Shown here: in pieces, positions 16,403 to 28,074 of the stretch
How the letters are laid out: every line of letters starts with the position of its first letter
How positions within the stretch are numbered: position 1 is the stretch's first letter
Source of the DNA: an uncultured Methanobrevibacter sp.
GTDB taxonomy: Archaea > Methanobacteriota > Methanobacteria > Methanobacteriales > Methanobacteriaceae
DNA length: 64,000 bases
Direction: 5' to 3'
Assembly (NCBI RefSeq): GCF_902784195.1
Contig: NZ_CACZTX010000002.1
Span: forward strand, 62,001-126,000
Program-made: the position numbers and the translations under genes
Notes under the pieces: model-generated
The model's database searches: none
What the model was told of the DNA's origin: nothing
Seen by the model: the letters and a program-made list of their open reading frames with translations, nothing else

Positions 16403-19400
16403 ATTTCGGTAAAAAGCAAGACGTTATTTGCAGTGCTTATAAGCTTGTTCATAATTTCTATAGCAAGTGTTTCTGCAACTGACGTCAGTGATATTAGTGA
16501 TAATCAAGATTCAAATATTCTAAATGATGTAGATTCTGGCAGTGGGATTTCCACTTCCGATGATTTTGTTGAAAATGGTACTGGCTCTGTTGGTTCTAGT
16601 ATTTCATCTAGTTCTGATAGTCTCAGCAGTTCAACAGGTGTTGATGTTTCTGATTATGATGGGAATTCAATTGATTCAATCGGTTCAACCGGTTCAGATA
16701 GTAATTCTTGCGAGATCAGTTCAAAAGATGAAATCTCTTCAACAAATGAATTGTGTTCATCTACAGAAGGAAATGCAGAAGCAAATGTCTCAAGTGATGT
16801 CTTATGCTCTTCTGAAGATGGTGAAAAGGATTCAGGTAGTGCTTTAGCTTCTTCAGCAAGTGAAAAAAATTCTTCAGTTATAGAATCTTCAAGCACTTCC
16901 GTTGCAAGAGGAGATTATTACAATGTCACTTTAAAAGATGGAAATTCCGGCAATCCATTGGCTGGAAAAACAATAACATTTAAATTAAATGGAAACAAGT
17001 ATACAAAAACTACAAATTCAAAGGGAGTCGCTAGCATATTGTTAAATGCAAGTCCAGGTACTTATGTGATTTATTACTCATATGATGGTGATTCCAATTA
17101 TGGGAACTATTCTAATTCCCAAAGCATAAAAATCGTAAAGACTCCAACAGCACTAGTTAATTCAGGCAGTTCTGTCGTAAATGGAAAAGCTTATTACATT
17201 ACCTTAAAGGATTCTTATGGAAATGTATTGTCAGGCAAAACCTTAAGTTTGACATTTAATGGAAAAACATATAAGAAAACTACAAACTCTAATGGTAAAG
17301 TTAGCTTAACCATCAGCGGTACAGTTGCAAAGACTTACAAATTAACCTACAAGTATGCTGGAGATGCAAACTACAGTTCCATTGCTGGCTCAGCAAGCAT
17401 CAAAATAAAGATGCCTACTGCTTTATCCGGTTCTGGATCTACAATAATTAAAGGAAAATATTATTACATTACTTTAAAAAACGGCAATGGGAAAGTCTTA
17501 TCAGGCAAATCTGTAGTCTTCACAGTAAATGGTAAGAATTATACTAAAACTACTAATTCCAAAGGGGTTGCAAGTTTAAAGATTAACTTAAAATCTAATA
17601 GAACTTATGCTTTAACGTATAAATATGCTGGCAGTTCCTATTATGGAAGTTCCTCTAAAACGGTTTCATTATTTGTCAAGACACCTACCCAATTTGTAAA
17701 TTCAGGTAGTTCAATTGCAAAGGGTAAAACCTATTACATTACTTTAAAGGATTCTGATGGGAATGTATTGGCTGGCAAAACCGTAAAGATAACATATCGT
17801 GGAAAAACTTATACCAAAACTACAAATTCAAAGGGTAAAGTAGGATTGAAAATCAGTTCAGCTATAGGTTATGCCTATAATCTTTCCTATAAGTATGCTG
17901 GAAATAGCAATTATGGTGCGATTTCCGGGTCTGTTAATTTAAAGGTTAAGAAAGGCACAAGTTTGGCTGGTTCCAGTTCCACTACAATTATCAAAGGAAA
18001 CAAATACTCTGTCACATTGAAGGATTCAAGTGGAAATGTCTTGTCAAGCAAAAAAGTCACTTTCACTTTCAATGGTAAAAATTATACTAAGACTACCAAT
18101 TCAAAAGGTGTAGCTAGTTTAACCATAAATGCAGCTGCAGGAAAAACCTATAGTTTTTCTTACAGCTATGCTGGAAGTTCATATTATGCAGCTTCCTCAT
18201 CAGGCACTATCAAATTGGCAGTCAAGCTTAAAAGTGTAATTTCAAACTCTGGAAGTTCCATAATGAATGGAAGTAACTACAAGATTACATTGAAGGATTC
18301 AAGCGGAAATCTTTTAGTTGGCAAGAATATTACCTTCACTTTCAATGGAAAAACATATTCCAAAACCACAGGGGCTACCGGTGTTGCAAGTTTAAGCATT
18401 GATGTAAGCACTCCTAAAACCTATGCATTAACTTATAAATTTGGAGGGGATAGCAACTACACTTCATCTTCCGGATCTGTAAGCTTGAATGTAAAGTCAA
18501 AAACTGCATTCACTGTTGCGCATATAGTTTCTGCATCCTCATCATTGAAATCCTATGTTGAGAAATATGGAAAGGTTCCATCTACAGTTTCTGTAAATGG
18601 AATATCCTTGAATCTAAGCAGTTTCACTTATTTGATGGGTAAAGCTGTTGCAAGCATTAATTCAGGGAAGACTTCTGCGGTTATTACTTTAGTAAATATC
18701 AGTTCAAGCTATTCTAATGGAGGAAGTTCATCCATTAACGGCAATTTGTCTAAAGCCAAGTATGTTTCATTGGCAAACAGCTTAGTGTCTTATGTTAATT
18801 CCAATGGCAAACTTCCGAATTACATTAATACTAGCTTAGGATTGGTTTCACCAAAGCTTTATAGTTTTGGTCTTTCCAAAGTTTTAGTATTCTATTCATC
18901 TAATAAGAGATTGCCTAACACTTTATCTCTTGTTTCAAGTGATGTTGACGGGGCAAGCAGTTCTGCAAGCAGTTCTTCTACCGCTTATTCTTCAGTTACC
19001 AAAAAGGGTAATGCTTCCCAATATAAAACTGGATTGAATGAAGTTGCAAATCTTACTGCTGCTCAGTTGAAAGCTTATTTAACCTCTTCCGGAAACGATG
19101 CCCTTAACTCCGCTATAAAGAGTTTGGCAAGTAAACTTGTTTCTGGAAAGACTACAACATGGGCGAAAGCGGTGGCAATCTATAACTATGTTAGAGACAA
19201 TATTTCATACAGTTTCTATTCCAACAGTAAAAAGGCCGCAAGCGGTACTTTAAGCAGTAAGTCTGCTAACTGTTGTGATCAAGCGAATTTGGTAGTTGCT
19301 CTTTGTAGAGCAGCCAACATACCTGCAAGATTTTCACATGCTAAAGGTTGTACATTTTCCAGCGGTTTGGTAACTGGACATGTATGGGCTCAGATTTATG

Positions 19401-19519
19401 TGGATGGAGTATGGTATTCTGCTGATGCAACAAGTAGCAGAAACAGTTTAGGAAACATTAAGAATTGGAATGTAAAGTCCTTTTCTAGCTTAAAACAATA
19501 TGCGCATTTGTCTTTCTGA
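16403..19519 (+). CDS. Secreted adhesin-like protein with Ig-like repeats, pseudomurein-binding repeats and C71/transglutaminase-like domain
   Basis: The ~1038-residue protein begins with a signal peptide (SVKSKTLFAVLISLF, cleavage after SVSA), complete only if translation starts at ATT 16403, five bases after the SD. A Ser-rich stretch follows, then about six Ig-like repeats (each with GKTYYITLKD, SGKTVxFTxNGKxYTKTTNSKG, YKYAG; residues ~170-695). Two pseudomurein-binding repeats come next (~700-755, ~782-843). The C-terminal cysteine-peptidase domain has Cys958, His993 and Asp1008. It likely sits on the pseudomurein wall and may cut or remodel it. Confidence 0.88.
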   Translation: MSVKSKTLFAVLISLFIISIASVSATDVSDISDNQDSNILNDVDSGSGISTSDDFVENGTGSVGSSISSSSDSLSSSTGVDVSDYDGNSIDSIGSTGSDSNSCEISSKDEISSTNELCSSTEGNAEANVSSDVLCSSEDGEKDSGSALASSASEKNSSVIESSSTSVARGDYYNVTLKDGNSGNPLAGKTITFKLNGNKYTKTTNSKGVASILLNASPGTYVIYYSYDGDSNYGNYSNSQSIKIVKTPTALVNSGSSVVNGKAYYITLKDSYGNVLSGKTLSLTFNGKTYKKTTNSNGKVSLTISGTVAKTYKLTYKYAGDANYSSIAGSASIKIKMPTALSGSGSTIIKGKYYYITLKNGNGKVLSGKSVVFTVNGKNYTKTTNSKGVASLKINLKSNRTYALTYKYAGSSYYGSSSKTVSLFVKTPTQFVNSGSSIAKGKTYYITLKDSDGNVLAGKTVKITYRGKTYTKTTNSKGKVGLKISSAIGYAYNLSYKYAGNSNYGAISGSVNLKVKKGTSLAGSSSTTIIKGNKYSVTLKDSSGNVLSSKKVTFTFNGKNYTKTTNSKGVASLTINAAAGKTYSFSYSYAGSSYYAASSSGTIKLAVKLKSVISNSGSSIMNGSNYKITLKDSSGNLLVGKNITFTFNGKTYSKTTGATGVASLSIDVSTPKTYALTYKFGGDSNYTSSSGSVSLNVKSKTAFTVAHIVSASSSLKSYVEKYGKVPSTVSVNGISLNLSSFTYLMGKAVASINSGKTSAVITLVNISSSYSNGGSSSINGNLSKAKYVSLANSLVSYVNSNGKLPNYINTSLGLVSPKLYSFGLSKVLVFYSSNKRLPNTLSLVSSDVDGASSSASSSSTAYSSVTKKGNASQYKTGLNEVANLTAAQLKAYLTSSGNDALNSAIKSLASKLVSGKTTTWAKAVAIYNYVRDNISYSFYSNSKKAASGTLSSKSANCCDQANLVVALCRAANIPARFSHAKGCTFSSGLVTGHVWAQIYVDGVWYSADATSSRNSLGNIKNWNVKSFSSLKQYAHLSF

Positions 19520-21233: not shown

Positions 21234-21244
21234 TCTAAAATATC

Positions 21245-21264
21245 TTTAGGTTTCGCCACCTAAA
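21245..21264 (+). promoter_or_regulatory. Conserved hairpin/operator upstream of small peptide A
   Basis: TTTAGGT and ACCTAAA form a perfect 7-bp stem with the loop TTCGCC. The same element lies upstream of peptide B with one G-U-compatible change, which suggests an RNA stem or a protein-binding inverted repeat near the transcript start. Confidence 0.65.
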
Positions 21265-21301
21265 AAATTTACAGGCAAGTCAAATTTTAGGAGGTGGTTT
21301 T

Positions 21302-21376
21302 ATGGAATTGACATTAAAATTTTTGCTGTTATTGATCAGTGCAATAATTAGCTTTGTTTTAATTTTCCTTGAATAA
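21302..21376 (+). CDS. 24-residue hydrophobic peptide A
   Basis: A strong SD (TTTTAGGAGGTGG) lies before an ATG that opens a 24-codon frame. The peptide starts MELTLKF, has a continuous aliphatic stretch and ends LIFLE, so it is a single membrane helix. A second locus 6.3 kb away encodes a 24-residue peptide with 10 identical positions and mostly conservative changes, which supports translation of both. Flanking RNA-like elements are also conserved. It resembles type I toxin peptides or regulatory membrane peptides; function unknown. Confidence 0.7.
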   Translation: MELTLKFLLLLISAIISFVLIFLE

Positions 21377-21404
21377 TCATATCCTAATAATAAGCGTCCA
21401 TGGT

Positions 21405-21443
21405 AAAAAAGTTAGGTTAAGATTTTCCTTGGTGGACTTTTCC
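21405..21443 (+). ncRNA. Conserved 3' block of small-peptide locus A
   Basis: The block AAAAAAGTTAGGTTAAG, then ATTTTCCTTGGTGGACTTTT, is shared almost exactly with locus B about the same distance after the peptide stop. Its conservation outside coding sequence points to an RNA element or an adjacent small RNA. Confidence 0.55.
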
Positions 21444-21563
21444 TTTTTAATATTATTTCAAGTTCTTCTAAATATTATTCTGAGATAAATTTTATATACA
21501 AAAAAATCTATATTATATTCATGGATTATTATTAGTCCTAAAATTGACTTGTTTGGTGTTATT

Positions 21564-21583
21564 TGAATTCTTTTTAGAATTCA
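21564..21583 (+). terminator. Conserved terminator hairpin of locus A
   Basis: TGAATTCT and AGAATTCA form an 8-bp stem, preceded in both loci by TTGTTATTT or a near match and followed by TTAACATT and a T run. The matching element in locus B is at 27873-27890. Confidence 0.65.
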
Positions 21584-21696
21584 CTTAACATTTTTTAAGC
21601 TATTTTTCTAATTTTTTTAAGATTTAAAATATTTATATTAGTTTAAATAAATGTTTTAGTATTCATTTTTTTATCATTTTTAATTTGAGAGATAAC

Positions 21697-23512: not shown

Positions 23513-24145
23513 TTATTCCAAGTTCTTAATGTATTCCAAGACTTCAATTGCATCCAAGTATTTGATGTCCTTTTCCTTCAATATGAAATCGATAAGCTTG
23601 GTTTTCTTTTCATCTTCCATTTCCACTTTTGAGAATATGTTCTGATAGGAACGTTTAGGGTAATAGATCTCTTTGGCAATATTGTGGATGTAATCCTTTT
23701 CCTCATCAGTGATTATTCCTTCCTCAACTGCCAAGTCCAATTTGTAGTCAACATTTACAAGAGCTTCAGATAATGGAACTTGATTGACGGGGTCAAAACT
23801 TAAAGCCACATCATCATCTGAAGTAATCTCTCCAGACCTGTATGCCTTGTAGACATAACCGATTCCAATCATGCCTAAATCATCAAGCTCTGATGCTCTT
23901 AAAGCGCCCATACTGCTTCCTCCAACTACAGTTATTCCCTTATCCAATGCCTTCATGATTTCCTTATGGGCAACTGCAGGAGTGTGGTGGAAAGCGCCAT
24001 CAATGATTCCTATTATGTCTGGCTTTTCAGATATTGCCTTTAGGATGTCCCCTCTTTTTACTGGAGGCCTGTAATCGGCATCAAGTATTGTTTTTGCTTC
24101 ATCCTCTAAAATGGACAATCCGAGGTAAACTATTATCTTTTTCAT
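23513..24145 (-). CDS. tfuA: TfuA-type McrA-glycine thioamidation protein
   Basis: The 210-residue protein matches TfuA-like partners of YcaO: IVYLGLSILEDEAKTIL, DGAFHHTPAVAHKEIM near 50, and the strongly conserved GGSSMGALRASEL near 78. In methanogens TfuA with YcaO converts a glycine of McrA, the methyl-coenzyme M reductase alpha subunit, to thioglycine, probably by supplying sulfide. The start overlaps the ycaO stop (ATGA), so the two are translationally coupled. Confidence 0.93.
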   Translation of the reverse strand: MKKIIVYLGLSILEDEAKTILDADYRPPVKRGDILKAISEKPDIIGIIDGAFHHTPAVAHKEIMKALDKGITVVGGSSMGALRASELDDLGMIGIGYVYKAYRSGEITSDDDVALSFDPVNQVPLSEALVNVDYKLDLAVEEGIITDEEKDYIHNIAKEIYYPKRSYQNIFSKVEMEDEKKTKLIDFILKEKDIKYLDAIEVLEYIKNLE

Positions 24146-25398
24146 CAGACTAACCCTCTTCTTGCTTTTCTATCATATTCCAAAGCACGGTTACCTAATC
24201 TTTCCTCATCCAATGAATAAAGCTCTGCTTTTGGAATGATTACCCTTGCAACATTGATTCCGATTTCATTTCTTGTAAGGTCAGTGTATAATACTTGATT
24301 GAATCCAACTTTCTGAACCTCTTCAATACTTGTTTCAATGTCCTTTTTGATTGAATTTGAACTTTTGTCTTCAATGTCTGATAAGTTGATGGTTTCCTCT
24401 TCCCTTTGGAAGTAATGCTTGTTCATTCTCTTCATGTGTTCATAGCCTGATTTCCTCATGAAGTCTGCTCTTATTGTATCTTCACGGGTTCCATGAATCT
24501 GGGTTGCTCTGCTTTGTGCAACTTCAGTAAGCGCTCTAATCACTGCAACTTCAGGGTTCAAGTGGGTCCCAACACCTAAAGTGAGGAGCGCTGGATCTTT
24601 CAGTACAGTATCATCAGCGCTTGCAGCTATTGTGGTTATCTTCAAGTCCGCTGTAATGTCCATAAGCTTAATTTCAATTCCTTGGCTATTGAACTTGTCT
24701 AAAAGTTCATTGATAATCTCGTTATCAATGCTTTCTTGGCTTATTTCTTTTTTATTTCTTTTGGTAAGTTCAAAAATGCTCCATGCATCCCTTTCAACCA
24801 CTTCAAAGATTCCATGCAAGACAGATTCCTCTATGATGTTTCCGGATGCAAGACCATTTGTGTTTCCTTTAAAAATAGCTATTGGACTAGGGTTCACGTC
24901 CCTTGTTGGAATGTAAGGATGGAAAACTGCATTTGATGGAACATAGACTGTTTCTTCGCTTATGATGTCTTCTGCTTCTATCCATTCTAACCTTGAATTT
25001 TCAACATTTTCATTGCTATAATTCTTTGGCAATAGAAGGTCTTTTGGGTCGAGAACATTCTTATCATTTTTAATGTTGTTGTAAGTGTCTACGAATGTTC
25101 TTTCTCCATCGATATCCTGCCTTTCTGCAGAATACCTTTCGAATCCTTCCATCATTGCAGATGCCTTTGCCTGCTCTCTGGTAGCGCCCTTTCCAGCATA
25201 GACACTTACACTTCCAGACTGTGCAGTTGGACGGATAGCGGAGAATACTGGAATCTTGACTCTATCCAAGTCGGTAATGTCGGTCAATCTGGTTATTCCA
25301 GCAGTTCTAAGTTTTTTCTCATTTATCTCAATTGTTTCCCTTGGGTCTCTCACTCTATGAGTTCCCTTAAAGAATTTTATTGGAATATCTTCAAACAT
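24145..25398 (-). CDS. ycaO: YcaO-type McrA-glycine thioamidation protein
   Basis: The 417-residue protein is a standalone YcaO enzyme. It has KGATREQAKASAMMEGFERYS near 75, TNGLASGNIIEESVLHGIFEVVERDAW near 180-205 and ALTEVAQSRATQIHG near 290. These hold the ATP/Mg sites by which YcaO phosphorylates a backbone amide so that sulfide can replace oxygen. Its partner tfuA follows directly. The product modifies McrA in the cytoplasm. Confidence 0.95.
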   Translation of the reverse strand: MFEDIPIKFFKGTHRVRDPRETIEINEKKLRTAGITRLTDITDLDRVKIPVFSAIRPTAQSGSVSVYAGKGATREQAKASAMMEGFERYSAERQDIDGERTFVDTYNNIKNDKNVLDPKDLLLPKNYSNENVENSRLEWIEAEDIISEETVYVPSNAVFHPYIPTRDVNPSPIAIFKGNTNGLASGNIIEESVLHGIFEVVERDAWSIFELTKRNKKEISQESIDNEIINELLDKFNSQGIEIKLMDITADLKITTIAASADDTVLKDPALLTLGVGTHLNPEVAVIRALTEVAQSRATQIHGTREDTIRADFMRKSGYEHMKRMNKHYFQREEETINLSDIEDKSSNSIKKDIETSIEEVQKVGFNQVLYTDLTRNEIGINVARVIIPKAELYSLDEERLGNRALEYDRKARRGLV

Positions 25399-26773: not shown

Positions 26774-27013
26774 ATGATGGTTAATGTGGGTACCACTAGG
26801 ATTTATAAAAACAACCAAACTACCATTCCATCTAAAATCAGAAAGCTATTTGACGTTTCTGAAGATACAGTGATGGATTGGGATTTGAATTCTGATAATG
26901 TCATAACTATAACTTTTAAAAGCAAAAAGTCTTCAATTCATGATTTGGCAGGATTAGGCAAAAGCAAAGAGACTACTAATGCAGTGGAATTAAAGAGGAG
27001 CTTGTATAAATGA
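26774..27013 (+). CDS. vapB: VapB-like AbrB-fold antitoxin
   Basis: The 79-residue protein starts with an AbrB/SpoVT-like swapped-hairpin domain (TRIYKNNQTTIPSKIRKLFD), followed by a flexible toxin-binding tail. The SD AGGTGAT suits the ATG at 26774 or 26777. The stop overlaps the vapC start by four bases, the usual antitoxin-toxin coupling. Confidence 0.85.
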   Translation: MMVNVGTTRIYKNNQTTIPSKIRKLFDVSEDTVMDWDLNSDNVITITFKSKKSSIHDLAGLGKSKETTNAVELKRSLYK

Positions 27014-27408
27014 AGATTTTCGTAGATTCCTCTTTTTTAATTGCATTAGTGAATGAAAATGACTCATTGCATGAAAAATCGTTGGAATATATTGACTTGA
27101 TTGAGAAAAATGGCTGCTATATAAGCAATCTAGTCATTAATGAAGTCATAACTGTAATTGGAAATAAGATAGATTTGGAAACTGCCATTTCTGCATTTGA
27201 TCTCATTAATGACATTTTCCATGTAATAAATGAGTATGAAATCAAGGATTTCAATTCAACCACTATGTTGATATATGAAAAGCATAACACTAAATTGAGT
27301 TTCACTGATTGCAGCATAATTGTGGATATGCATTATCACAAAATTGAAAATCTTTTAAGCTTTGACAAGGAATTTAAAAAAGCTGAAGGGATAAATTTAA
27401 TTTTATAA
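27010..27408 (+). CDS. vapC: VapC-like PIN-domain ribonuclease toxin
   Basis: The 132-residue PIN protein has the acidic active-site residues Asp6 (IFVDSSFLIAL), Glu45 (INEVIT), Asp100 (SFTDCSI) and Asp119 (SFDKEF). VapC toxins cut tRNA or rRNA when released from VapB. All catalytic positions are intact, so the pair looks functional. Confidence 0.9.
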   Translation: MKIFVDSSFLIALVNENDSLHEKSLEYIDLIEKNGCYISNLVINEVITVIGNKIDLETAISAFDLINDIFHVINEYEIKDFNSTTMLIYEKHNTKLSFTDCSIIVDMHYHKIENLLSFDKEFKKAEGINLIL

Positions 27409-27560: not shown

Positions 27561-27574
27561 CTAAAATATCTATT

Positions 27575-27594
27575 TTTAGGTTTCACCATCTAAA
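27575..27594 (+). promoter_or_regulatory. Conserved hairpin/operator upstream of small peptide B
   Basis: TTTAGGT pairs with ATCTAAA (one G-U pair) around the loop TTCACC. It matches the element of locus A in stem, loop length and distance to the peptide start. Confidence 0.65.
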
Positions 27595-27632
27595 AAAATC
27601 AAAGGTTCTAAAGAAATTAAGGAGGTGATGAT

Positions 27633-27707
27633 TTGGAAATGGATCTTAGGACAATTTTATTGTTTATTGAAGTTCTAATAAAATTATTTCTAATCTTTAT
27701 CCAATAG
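27633..27707 (+). CDS. 24-residue hydrophobic peptide B
   Basis: After the SD AAGGAGGTGAT, a TTG start opens a 24-codon frame (MEMDLRT..., ending LIFIQ). It matches peptide A in length, Met-Glu start, Lys/Arg at position 6, aliphatic core and LIF near the end, with 10 identities. It is a predicted single membrane helix. An ATG at 27639 and an out-of-frame ATG at 27628 are alternatives, but only this frame is shared with locus A. Confidence 0.65.
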   Translation: MEMDLRTILLFIEVLIKLFLIFIQ

Positions 27708-27730
27708 TTATCTCTGTCTTATAATACCAT

Positions 27731-27770
27731 GAAAAAAGTTAGGTTAGATTTTTCCTTGATGGGCTTTTCC
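27731..27770 (+). ncRNA. Conserved 3' block of small-peptide locus B
   Basis: GAAAAAAGTTAGGTTAG followed by ATTTTTCCTTGATGGGCTTT matches the block of locus A with a few substitutions, while the sequence around it has diverged. It is probably a functional RNA element. Confidence 0.55.
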
Positions 27771-27872
27771 TATTTTTGAATGTTAATGAAAACTTTTAAA
27801 TATCATTTTTATTATATTATTATTATGGATTTATAGACAGATCCAAAAATTTCTTTAGAACCTGTTGTTATT

Positions 27873-27890
27873 TGAATTCTTTAGAATTCA
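27873..27890 (+). terminator. Conserved terminator hairpin of locus B
   Basis: TGAATTCT and AGAATTCA repeat the hairpin found at the end of locus A, again preceded by TTGTTATT and followed by TTAACATT. Confidence 0.65.
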
Positions 27891-28074
27891 TTTAACATTC
27901 ATTGACTTTTTTTACCCAATTTAATTTTCAAATCTAATTTTAATTTTATTAAATCACTTTAATTTTACAACATCATTGTAATTTTACTTATTTTTTATTA
28001 TATTCTTATTAAAAAGTTTTTTTAAGTCTATAAATAAGTTAAATTTATTAATAACTTATACAAATCTATTATCA

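Follow-up and report, generated by a model that had tools for sequence, protein, structure and literature searches.

Paired peptide and small-RNA genes in Methanobrevibacter are a likely archaeal family of type I toxin-antitoxin modules

As inferred from sequence alone, locus A of an uncultured Methanobrevibacter sp. consists of two genes on the same strand rather than one, a peptide gene and a small-RNA (sRNA) gene (Table 1). It lies at positions 21234-21583 of the window, by which we mean the whole 64,000-nucleotide stretch of DNA that was analysed. Locus A is a member of a family, and each locus of this family is likely to be an archaeal type I toxin-antitoxin module. The sequence evidence covers the conservation of the peptide, of the sRNA and of their mutual complementarity, and less firmly a 5'-3' pairing within the toxin mRNA; transcription, translation, repression, membrane targeting and toxicity are inferred.

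The first-pass annotation had listed at locus A an inverted repeat, a Shine-Dalgarno sequence (SD), a 24-codon ORF, a downstream block of about 39 bp and a terminator hairpin, and had reported that they recur in the same order at 27561-27890. All of these elements are present and the recurrence held, with the second copy, locus B, extending to 27896. It had also claimed two 24-residue peptides with 10 of 24 residues in common and diverged DNA in between, which was likewise confirmed. Its view of the inverted repeat as a conserved element held only in part; the repeat is imperfect in locus B (TTTAGGT..ACCATCTAAA) and lost in some relatives. What had been overlooked is a TATA box and a leader-complementary stretch between the block and the hairpin, and the 3' third of the annotated interval is therefore a second gene. 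The sRNA unit of locus A was matched by the R1 model at G000:C2:83486-83596 (G000 being this genome).

Table 1. Features of loci A and B in window coordinates; toxin and antitoxin are putative designations throughout
Feature	Position	Strand	Remarks
Gene 1 (toxin mRNA A)	21245-21449	+	leader, SD, 24-codon hydrophobic ORF and '39-bp block'
Leader element of toxin mRNA A	21245-21264	+	TTTAGGTTTCGCCACCTAAA; TTTAGGT-TTCGCC-ACCTAAA; local 7-bp hairpin
Arms of leader element A	AGG 21248-21250; CCACC 21256-21260	+	alternative pairing with 3' block
Target site in leader A	21272-21292	+	address and first part of SD; complementary to sRNA A; read from sequence
Shine-Dalgarno A	21289-21297	+	AGGAGGTGG; read from sequence
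Peptide A ORF	21302-21376	+	24 codons, hydrophobic, putative type I toxin; MELTLKFLLLLISAIISFVLIFLE
3' block of toxin mRNA A	21404-21449	+	T run at end
Pairing motifs of 3' block A	GGTGG 21431-21435; CCT 21442-21444	+	can pair with CCACC and AGG, respectively, in the leader element
Gene 2 (sRNA unit A)	about 21491-21596	+	TATA box, antisense stretch and terminator hairpin
TATA box of antitoxin sRNA gene A	21491-21498	+	TTTATATA; sequence scan
Antitoxin sRNA A	21520-21598	+	about 80 nt, start inferred from TATA box position; 5' hairpin GGATT..AGTCC, then antisense stretch, then terminator
Antisense stretch of sRNA A	21536-21555	+	TCCTAAAATTGACTTGTTTG; anti-SD plus address
Terminator of sRNA A	21558-21596	+	hairpin 21558-21589 (GTTATTTGAATTC-TTTTTA-GAATTCACTTAAC) and T run
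Locus B	27561-27896	+	same element order as locus A
Leader element of toxin mRNA B	27577-27596	+	CCATC (27586-27590) pairs with GATGG (27758-27762)
Target site in leader B	27603-27618	+	AGGTTCTAAAGAAATT; adjoins SD AGGAGGTG (27620-27627)
Peptide B ORF	27633-27707	+	24 codons, TTG start; LEMDLRTILLFIEVLIKLFLIFIQ
3' block of toxin mRNA B	27731-27777	+
TATA-like box of antitoxin sRNA gene B	27795-27802	+	TTTAAATA; sequence scan
Antisense stretch of sRNA B	27847-27863	+	AAATTTCTTTAGAACCT; 16 nt pair with leader B without a mismatch
Terminator hairpin of sRNA B	27867-27896	+

Loci A and B could be aligned end to end, with highly identical segments alternating with stretches that have diverged. When locus A was used as the query, a DNA search retrieved locus B at E = 5e-18, far beyond what chance would give, and strong relatives elsewhere in the genus reached E values as low as 1e-136. 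Because genome G005 carries both A-type and B-type loci, we regard locus B as a separate subfamily and not as a recent duplicate of A. The leaders of the two loci differ, and their antisense stretches differ correspondingly: in locus A the sRNA segment TCCTAAAATTGACTTG (21536-21551) is complementary to leader segment CAAGTCAAATTTTAGGA with one bulge, and in locus B AATTTCTTTAGAACCT matches its own leader target perfectly. Directly upstream of locus B lies a VapBC-like type II pair, an AbrB/MazE-like antitoxin with a PIN-domain toxin (26774-27408). Elsewhere in the window we noted adjacent TfuA and YcaO genes (23513-25398), probably the thioamide-forming pair of methanogens, and a long, repetitive adhesin-like protein whose C-terminus resembles transglutaminase (16433-19519, read from the ORF).

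The family was surveyed twice. Two models, a covariance model for the sRNA unit and one for leader plus ORF that used sequence only, were first applied to 19 genomes of the genus and returned many copies; a broader model was then run over 139 genomes of the family Methanobacteriaceae together with a leader pattern, and reached a second genus (g11). The loci are missing from 8 of the 19 genomes of the genus. A locus was retained only if the leader motif was followed by a short hydrophobic ORF, which gave 41 loci with 33 distinct peptides in 21 Methanobrevibacter-related genomes, falling into 11 diverged types (A-K). The leader pattern matched in g11 about as often as its reversed control, and for this reason only the 10 g11 loci with a 24-codon ORF were kept. 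Some sites occupy fixed chromosomal places, beside a CBS-domain gene or an xseA-like gene. In a leader-pattern search of bacterial and archaeal genomes all named relatives were Methanobrevibacter; one match was to an M. olleyae MAG. Matches of the pattern in Polaribacter, Pseudomonas, Legionella and others were rejected as lacking a peptide locus, as was a single match among viral contigs, and R3 matches outside g1 and g11 corresponded to no such locus in those inspected (G122, G127 and G132 of g14; G140 of g15).

The peptide is exactly 24 aa long in 34 of the 41 loci, 23-26 aa in six (types F and J have 25 aa and type H 26 aa) and 40 aa in one. With a mean hydropathy of 1.43 it meets the expectation of a small hydrophobic peptide (<60 aa) for type I systems. 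The single 40-aa peptide, of the I-type locus of this genome (G000:C1:487547), appears to start at ATT, contains an internal repeat and resembles two fused toxin modules. A lack of homologues in other Methanobrevibacter genomes would have counted against the first-pass annotation, as would a 24-codon frame without selection. Neither was the case: homologues were found in many of these genomes, and the frame is under selection, its length being fixed and codon position 2 being the least variable in every type compared. Searches of Pfam and NCBIfam with seven representative peptides gave no match at E<=1, although profile searches are weak for such short peptides; because no family there matches, the label 'toxin' rests on size, hydrophobicity and arrangement. 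An Rfam search of the loci gave no relevant match above the gathering score.

The complementarity between sRNA and leader was assessed by a cognate test, in which the best RNA duplex of each leader (-45 to +4) with its own flanks (-800 to -75, plus 500 nt after the ORF) was compared with that formed with the flanks of every other locus, without imposing positions. For 30 of the 41 loci, none of the roughly 32-41 flanks compared gave a better duplex than the locus's own, and these 30 include at least one locus of each of the 11 types. The cognate ranked below third in 6 of 41: one A-type locus at a contig end, one J-type and weakly scoring K-types. Relatedness within types means that the 41 loci are not independent observations, and it is safer to count the 11 types. 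The positions of the best duplex cluster by type, at about +208 to +217 in A, +182 to +209 in B, +226 in C, +186 to +237 in K, -274 in D and -359 to -328 in E.

Ungapped helix scores had medians of 32 for cognate pairs, 17 for other-type pairs and 18 for same-type non-cognate pairs; the windows were centred on hits of the cognate test, which slightly favours cognates. An uncentred test gave a median of 32 for same-strand pairing, which fell to 22 when the opposite strand was used and to 21 when leaders were shuffled; the 95th percentile of shuffles was exceeded in 30 of 40 loci on the same strand versus 2 of 40 on the opposite strand. The classical cis layout with an antisense RNA on the opposite strand was rejected, as there was no excess complementarity. 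The requirement of an RNA complementary to the toxin mRNA, which defines a type I antitoxin, is met at the level of inference from sequence in all 11 types, and only on the same strand. The suggestion that locus A is a type I toxin-antitoxin or a regulatory membrane-peptide locus, originally made from layout alone and with the antitoxin unseen, is supported by this same-strand antitoxin RNA and by its complementarity to the toxin leader, kept across the 11 types; toxicity has not been shown.

The paired region of the leader spans about -38 to -6, i.e. the SD and the sequence upstream of it. The small RNA combines a constant part, the anti-SD (UCC or CUCC), with a variable part of about 10-20 nt that we term the address. 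Of the 141 positions in cognate helices that are not Watson-Crick pairs, 46 are G-U pairs. This genome carries toxins A, B, D, E and I and an orphan C-type sRNA. The cognate duplexes of its five toxin/sRNA pairs have energies of -25.7 to -33.2 kcal/mol, compared with -9.2 to -23.3 for non-cognate combinations, and the modelled duplex energies predict that the five pairs are mutually orthogonal.

In nine types (A, B, C and F-K) the antisense stretch follows the ORF on the same strand. Types D and E have the swapped order, with the sRNA unit ahead of the toxin gene and its antisense stretch about 230-360 nt upstream of the start codon, before the leader. In 82% of loci, compared with 43% in shuffles, the antisense stretch is preceded by a TATA-like box, the median distance being 54 nt, and in most loci a hairpin follows directly 3' of this stretch; the TATA-like box of the toxin gene could not be distinguished from shuffles in the same scan. 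Orphan sRNA units retain the TATA box and terminator without a toxin nearby. One in this genome (G000:C2:171420-171549) occupies the position at which, in related genomes, a complete type C locus precedes the xseA-like gene, another in G022 stands at the site of locus A, and others were found in G004 (after an adhesin-like gene) and G021. The swapped order in D and E and the existence of orphan RNA genes, together with the TATA box and terminator, argue, without transcript data, that the sRNA is transcribed as a separate unit. G006 has a frameshifted toxin gene next to an intact sRNA; judged by sequence, this locus and the orphans fit loss of the toxin before its antidote. In two loci (G024 and G059) a tandem pair of sRNA units stands beside one toxin, the second sRNA having a diverged antisense stretch.

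The block 3' of the ORF can pair with the leader through two short helices. The main closure helix is CCACC/GGUGG in A, CCAUC/GAUGG in B, GCCACCU/AGGUGGC in C, CUACCU/AGGUAG in D, GAUAUCU/AGAUAUC in E, AUCCUC/GAGGAU in F, ACCAUCUC/GAGAUGGU in H, UUCACUCCA/UGGAGUGAA in I, CUUGCC/GGCAAG in J and CCACU/AGUGG in K, and is absent in type G. Its sequence varies between types while the pairing is kept. When the 3' elements were shuffled among types, the observed total was never reached in 100,000 permutations, with the caveat that the windows were chosen by eye. The energy rank of the closure is strong in C, H, I and most K, mixed in E and J, and weak in A, B and D; because of these last three, we claim closure only as probable. 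That the 3' block of the toxin mRNA pairs back with the 5' leader is likely, rests on prediction only and is less firm than the conservation of peptide and sRNA. A local leader hairpin as a general key element was rejected, being lost in type K.

We propose that gene one is transcribed into a short mRNA encoding a hydrophobic peptide of 24 aa, an inferred membrane-acting toxin, and that gene two, which has the same orientation and carries a TATA box and terminator of its own, would give an sRNA of about 80-100 nt. The central 12-30 nt of this sRNA would pair in trans with the cognate leader and SD and block ribosome binding. Pairing of this extent is enough in principle, since ZorO/OrzO works with 18 nt of complementarity, of which 15 continuous nt suffice (PMC3919570). 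As the anti-SD is constant and the adjoining address varies, several modules could coexist without cross-talk. The toxin mRNA would probably also be shut by pairing of its 3' block with the 5' leader, as in hok or aapA mRNAs. RNase III is not known to be common in archaea. This genome has a gene for it (G000:C1:223589-223975) with the catalytic motif and an apparent double-strand RNA-binding domain, and the enzyme (PF14622) was found in 109 of the 139 genomes of the family, above the cut-off in none of the listed g14 genomes; it could cut the sRNA/mRNA duplex, an involvement that is inferred. A bolder joint reading, in which several orthogonal pairs in one methanogen combine address-plus-anti-SD specificity, closure-locked toxin mRNAs and duplex decay by RNase III, is as likely to fail as to hold.

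Three alternatives were considered. The membrane peptide may serve regulation without being toxic, as a stress-modulated small protein would, with its translation controlled by the neighbouring sRNA through the same RNA mechanism. In its favour, there are no toxicity data, the peptide is strongly conserved, and some sites are inherited at the fixed places beside the CBS-domain and xseA-like genes. However, the orphan sRNAs and the frameshifted peptide gene fit addiction-type modules better, as do up to five orthogonal paralogues per genome and the patchy presence within the genus, and a small hydrophobic peptide whose SD is masked and whose mRNA may be locked has the profile of a type I toxin. 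We consider this alternative unlikely. Less likely still is a single mRNA whose antisense stretch is a 3' UTR pairing with the leader in cis, with no separate sRNA. The downstream, same-strand position in nine types would allow it by read-through, but in D and E the stretch precedes the toxin leader, the orphan units keep both TATA box and terminator with no toxin nearby, and a TATA-like box precedes the stretch in most loci.

CreTA consists of a small toxin gene and a short guide RNA, and occurs in archaea. A CreTA-like system, with a crRNA-like guide and the Cascade complex repressing the toxin promoter, can be all but ruled out. No result here supports it: the complementarity is to the leader and SD and not to the promoter, and the constant part of the RNA is an anti-SD, not a repeat-derived handle, and is followed by a hairpin and T run. 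The G-U pairs in cognate helices also speak against it, a modest argument because the alignment favours them. CRISPR-repeat-like flanks and a promoter target, as CreTA requires, were not found at the loci; the Cas genes and repeats of the genome were outside the scope of this analysis.

The type I reading has its closest known counterparts in ZorO/OrzO of E. coli O157:H7, ShoB/OhsC and TisB/IstR, all of them 'unconventional' type I systems in which the complementarity is short. As in ZorO/OrzO, there is a small hydrophobic peptide (ZorO has 29 aa) and a separate sRNA, there with only 18-21 nt complementary to the toxin mRNA (PMC3919570); a variable region separates paralogous pairs, orphan sRNAs (orz) exist (PMC11264685) and RNase III is available. 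Unlike that group, which is bacterial with divergently encoded sRNAs, the archaeal sRNA lies on the same strand, downstream or upstream of the toxin, and covers the SD itself, and there is no sequence family match. AapA/IsoA of Helicobacter and hok/Sok share the presence of several copies per chromosome, and use 5'-3' long-distance inactivation with metastable 5' hairpins (PMC6733600), whereas closure is only predicted here; theirs are cis-antisense RNAs overlapping the toxin gene, and the Methanobrevibacter RNA is encoded outside it. According to the authors of the 2025 paper on MsoT1/MsoA1 of Microcystis, no phyla other than Proteobacteria, Firmicutes and Tenericutes had been known to carry type I systems before their cyanobacterial one (PMC12390103). 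Like that cyanobacterial pair, the present family is a candidate from outside the classical phyla, but in another domain. The literature searched, with subscription papers and preprints outside its scope, held bacterial reports only and no archaeal type I system. The principle is known; what is new is the archaeal domain, the same-strand tandem layout, the lack of homology to known toxins and the address-plus-anti-SD design. Because no homology to known toxins was found, the archaeal origin is apparently independent.

If the reading is true, this widespread family in Methanobrevibacter, which are rumen and gut methanogens, brings the type I class to a second domain of life. It would then be a source both of ready-made orthogonal RNA switches and of peptides that act on archaeal membranes, and provide a concrete, testable target in climate-relevant methanogens.
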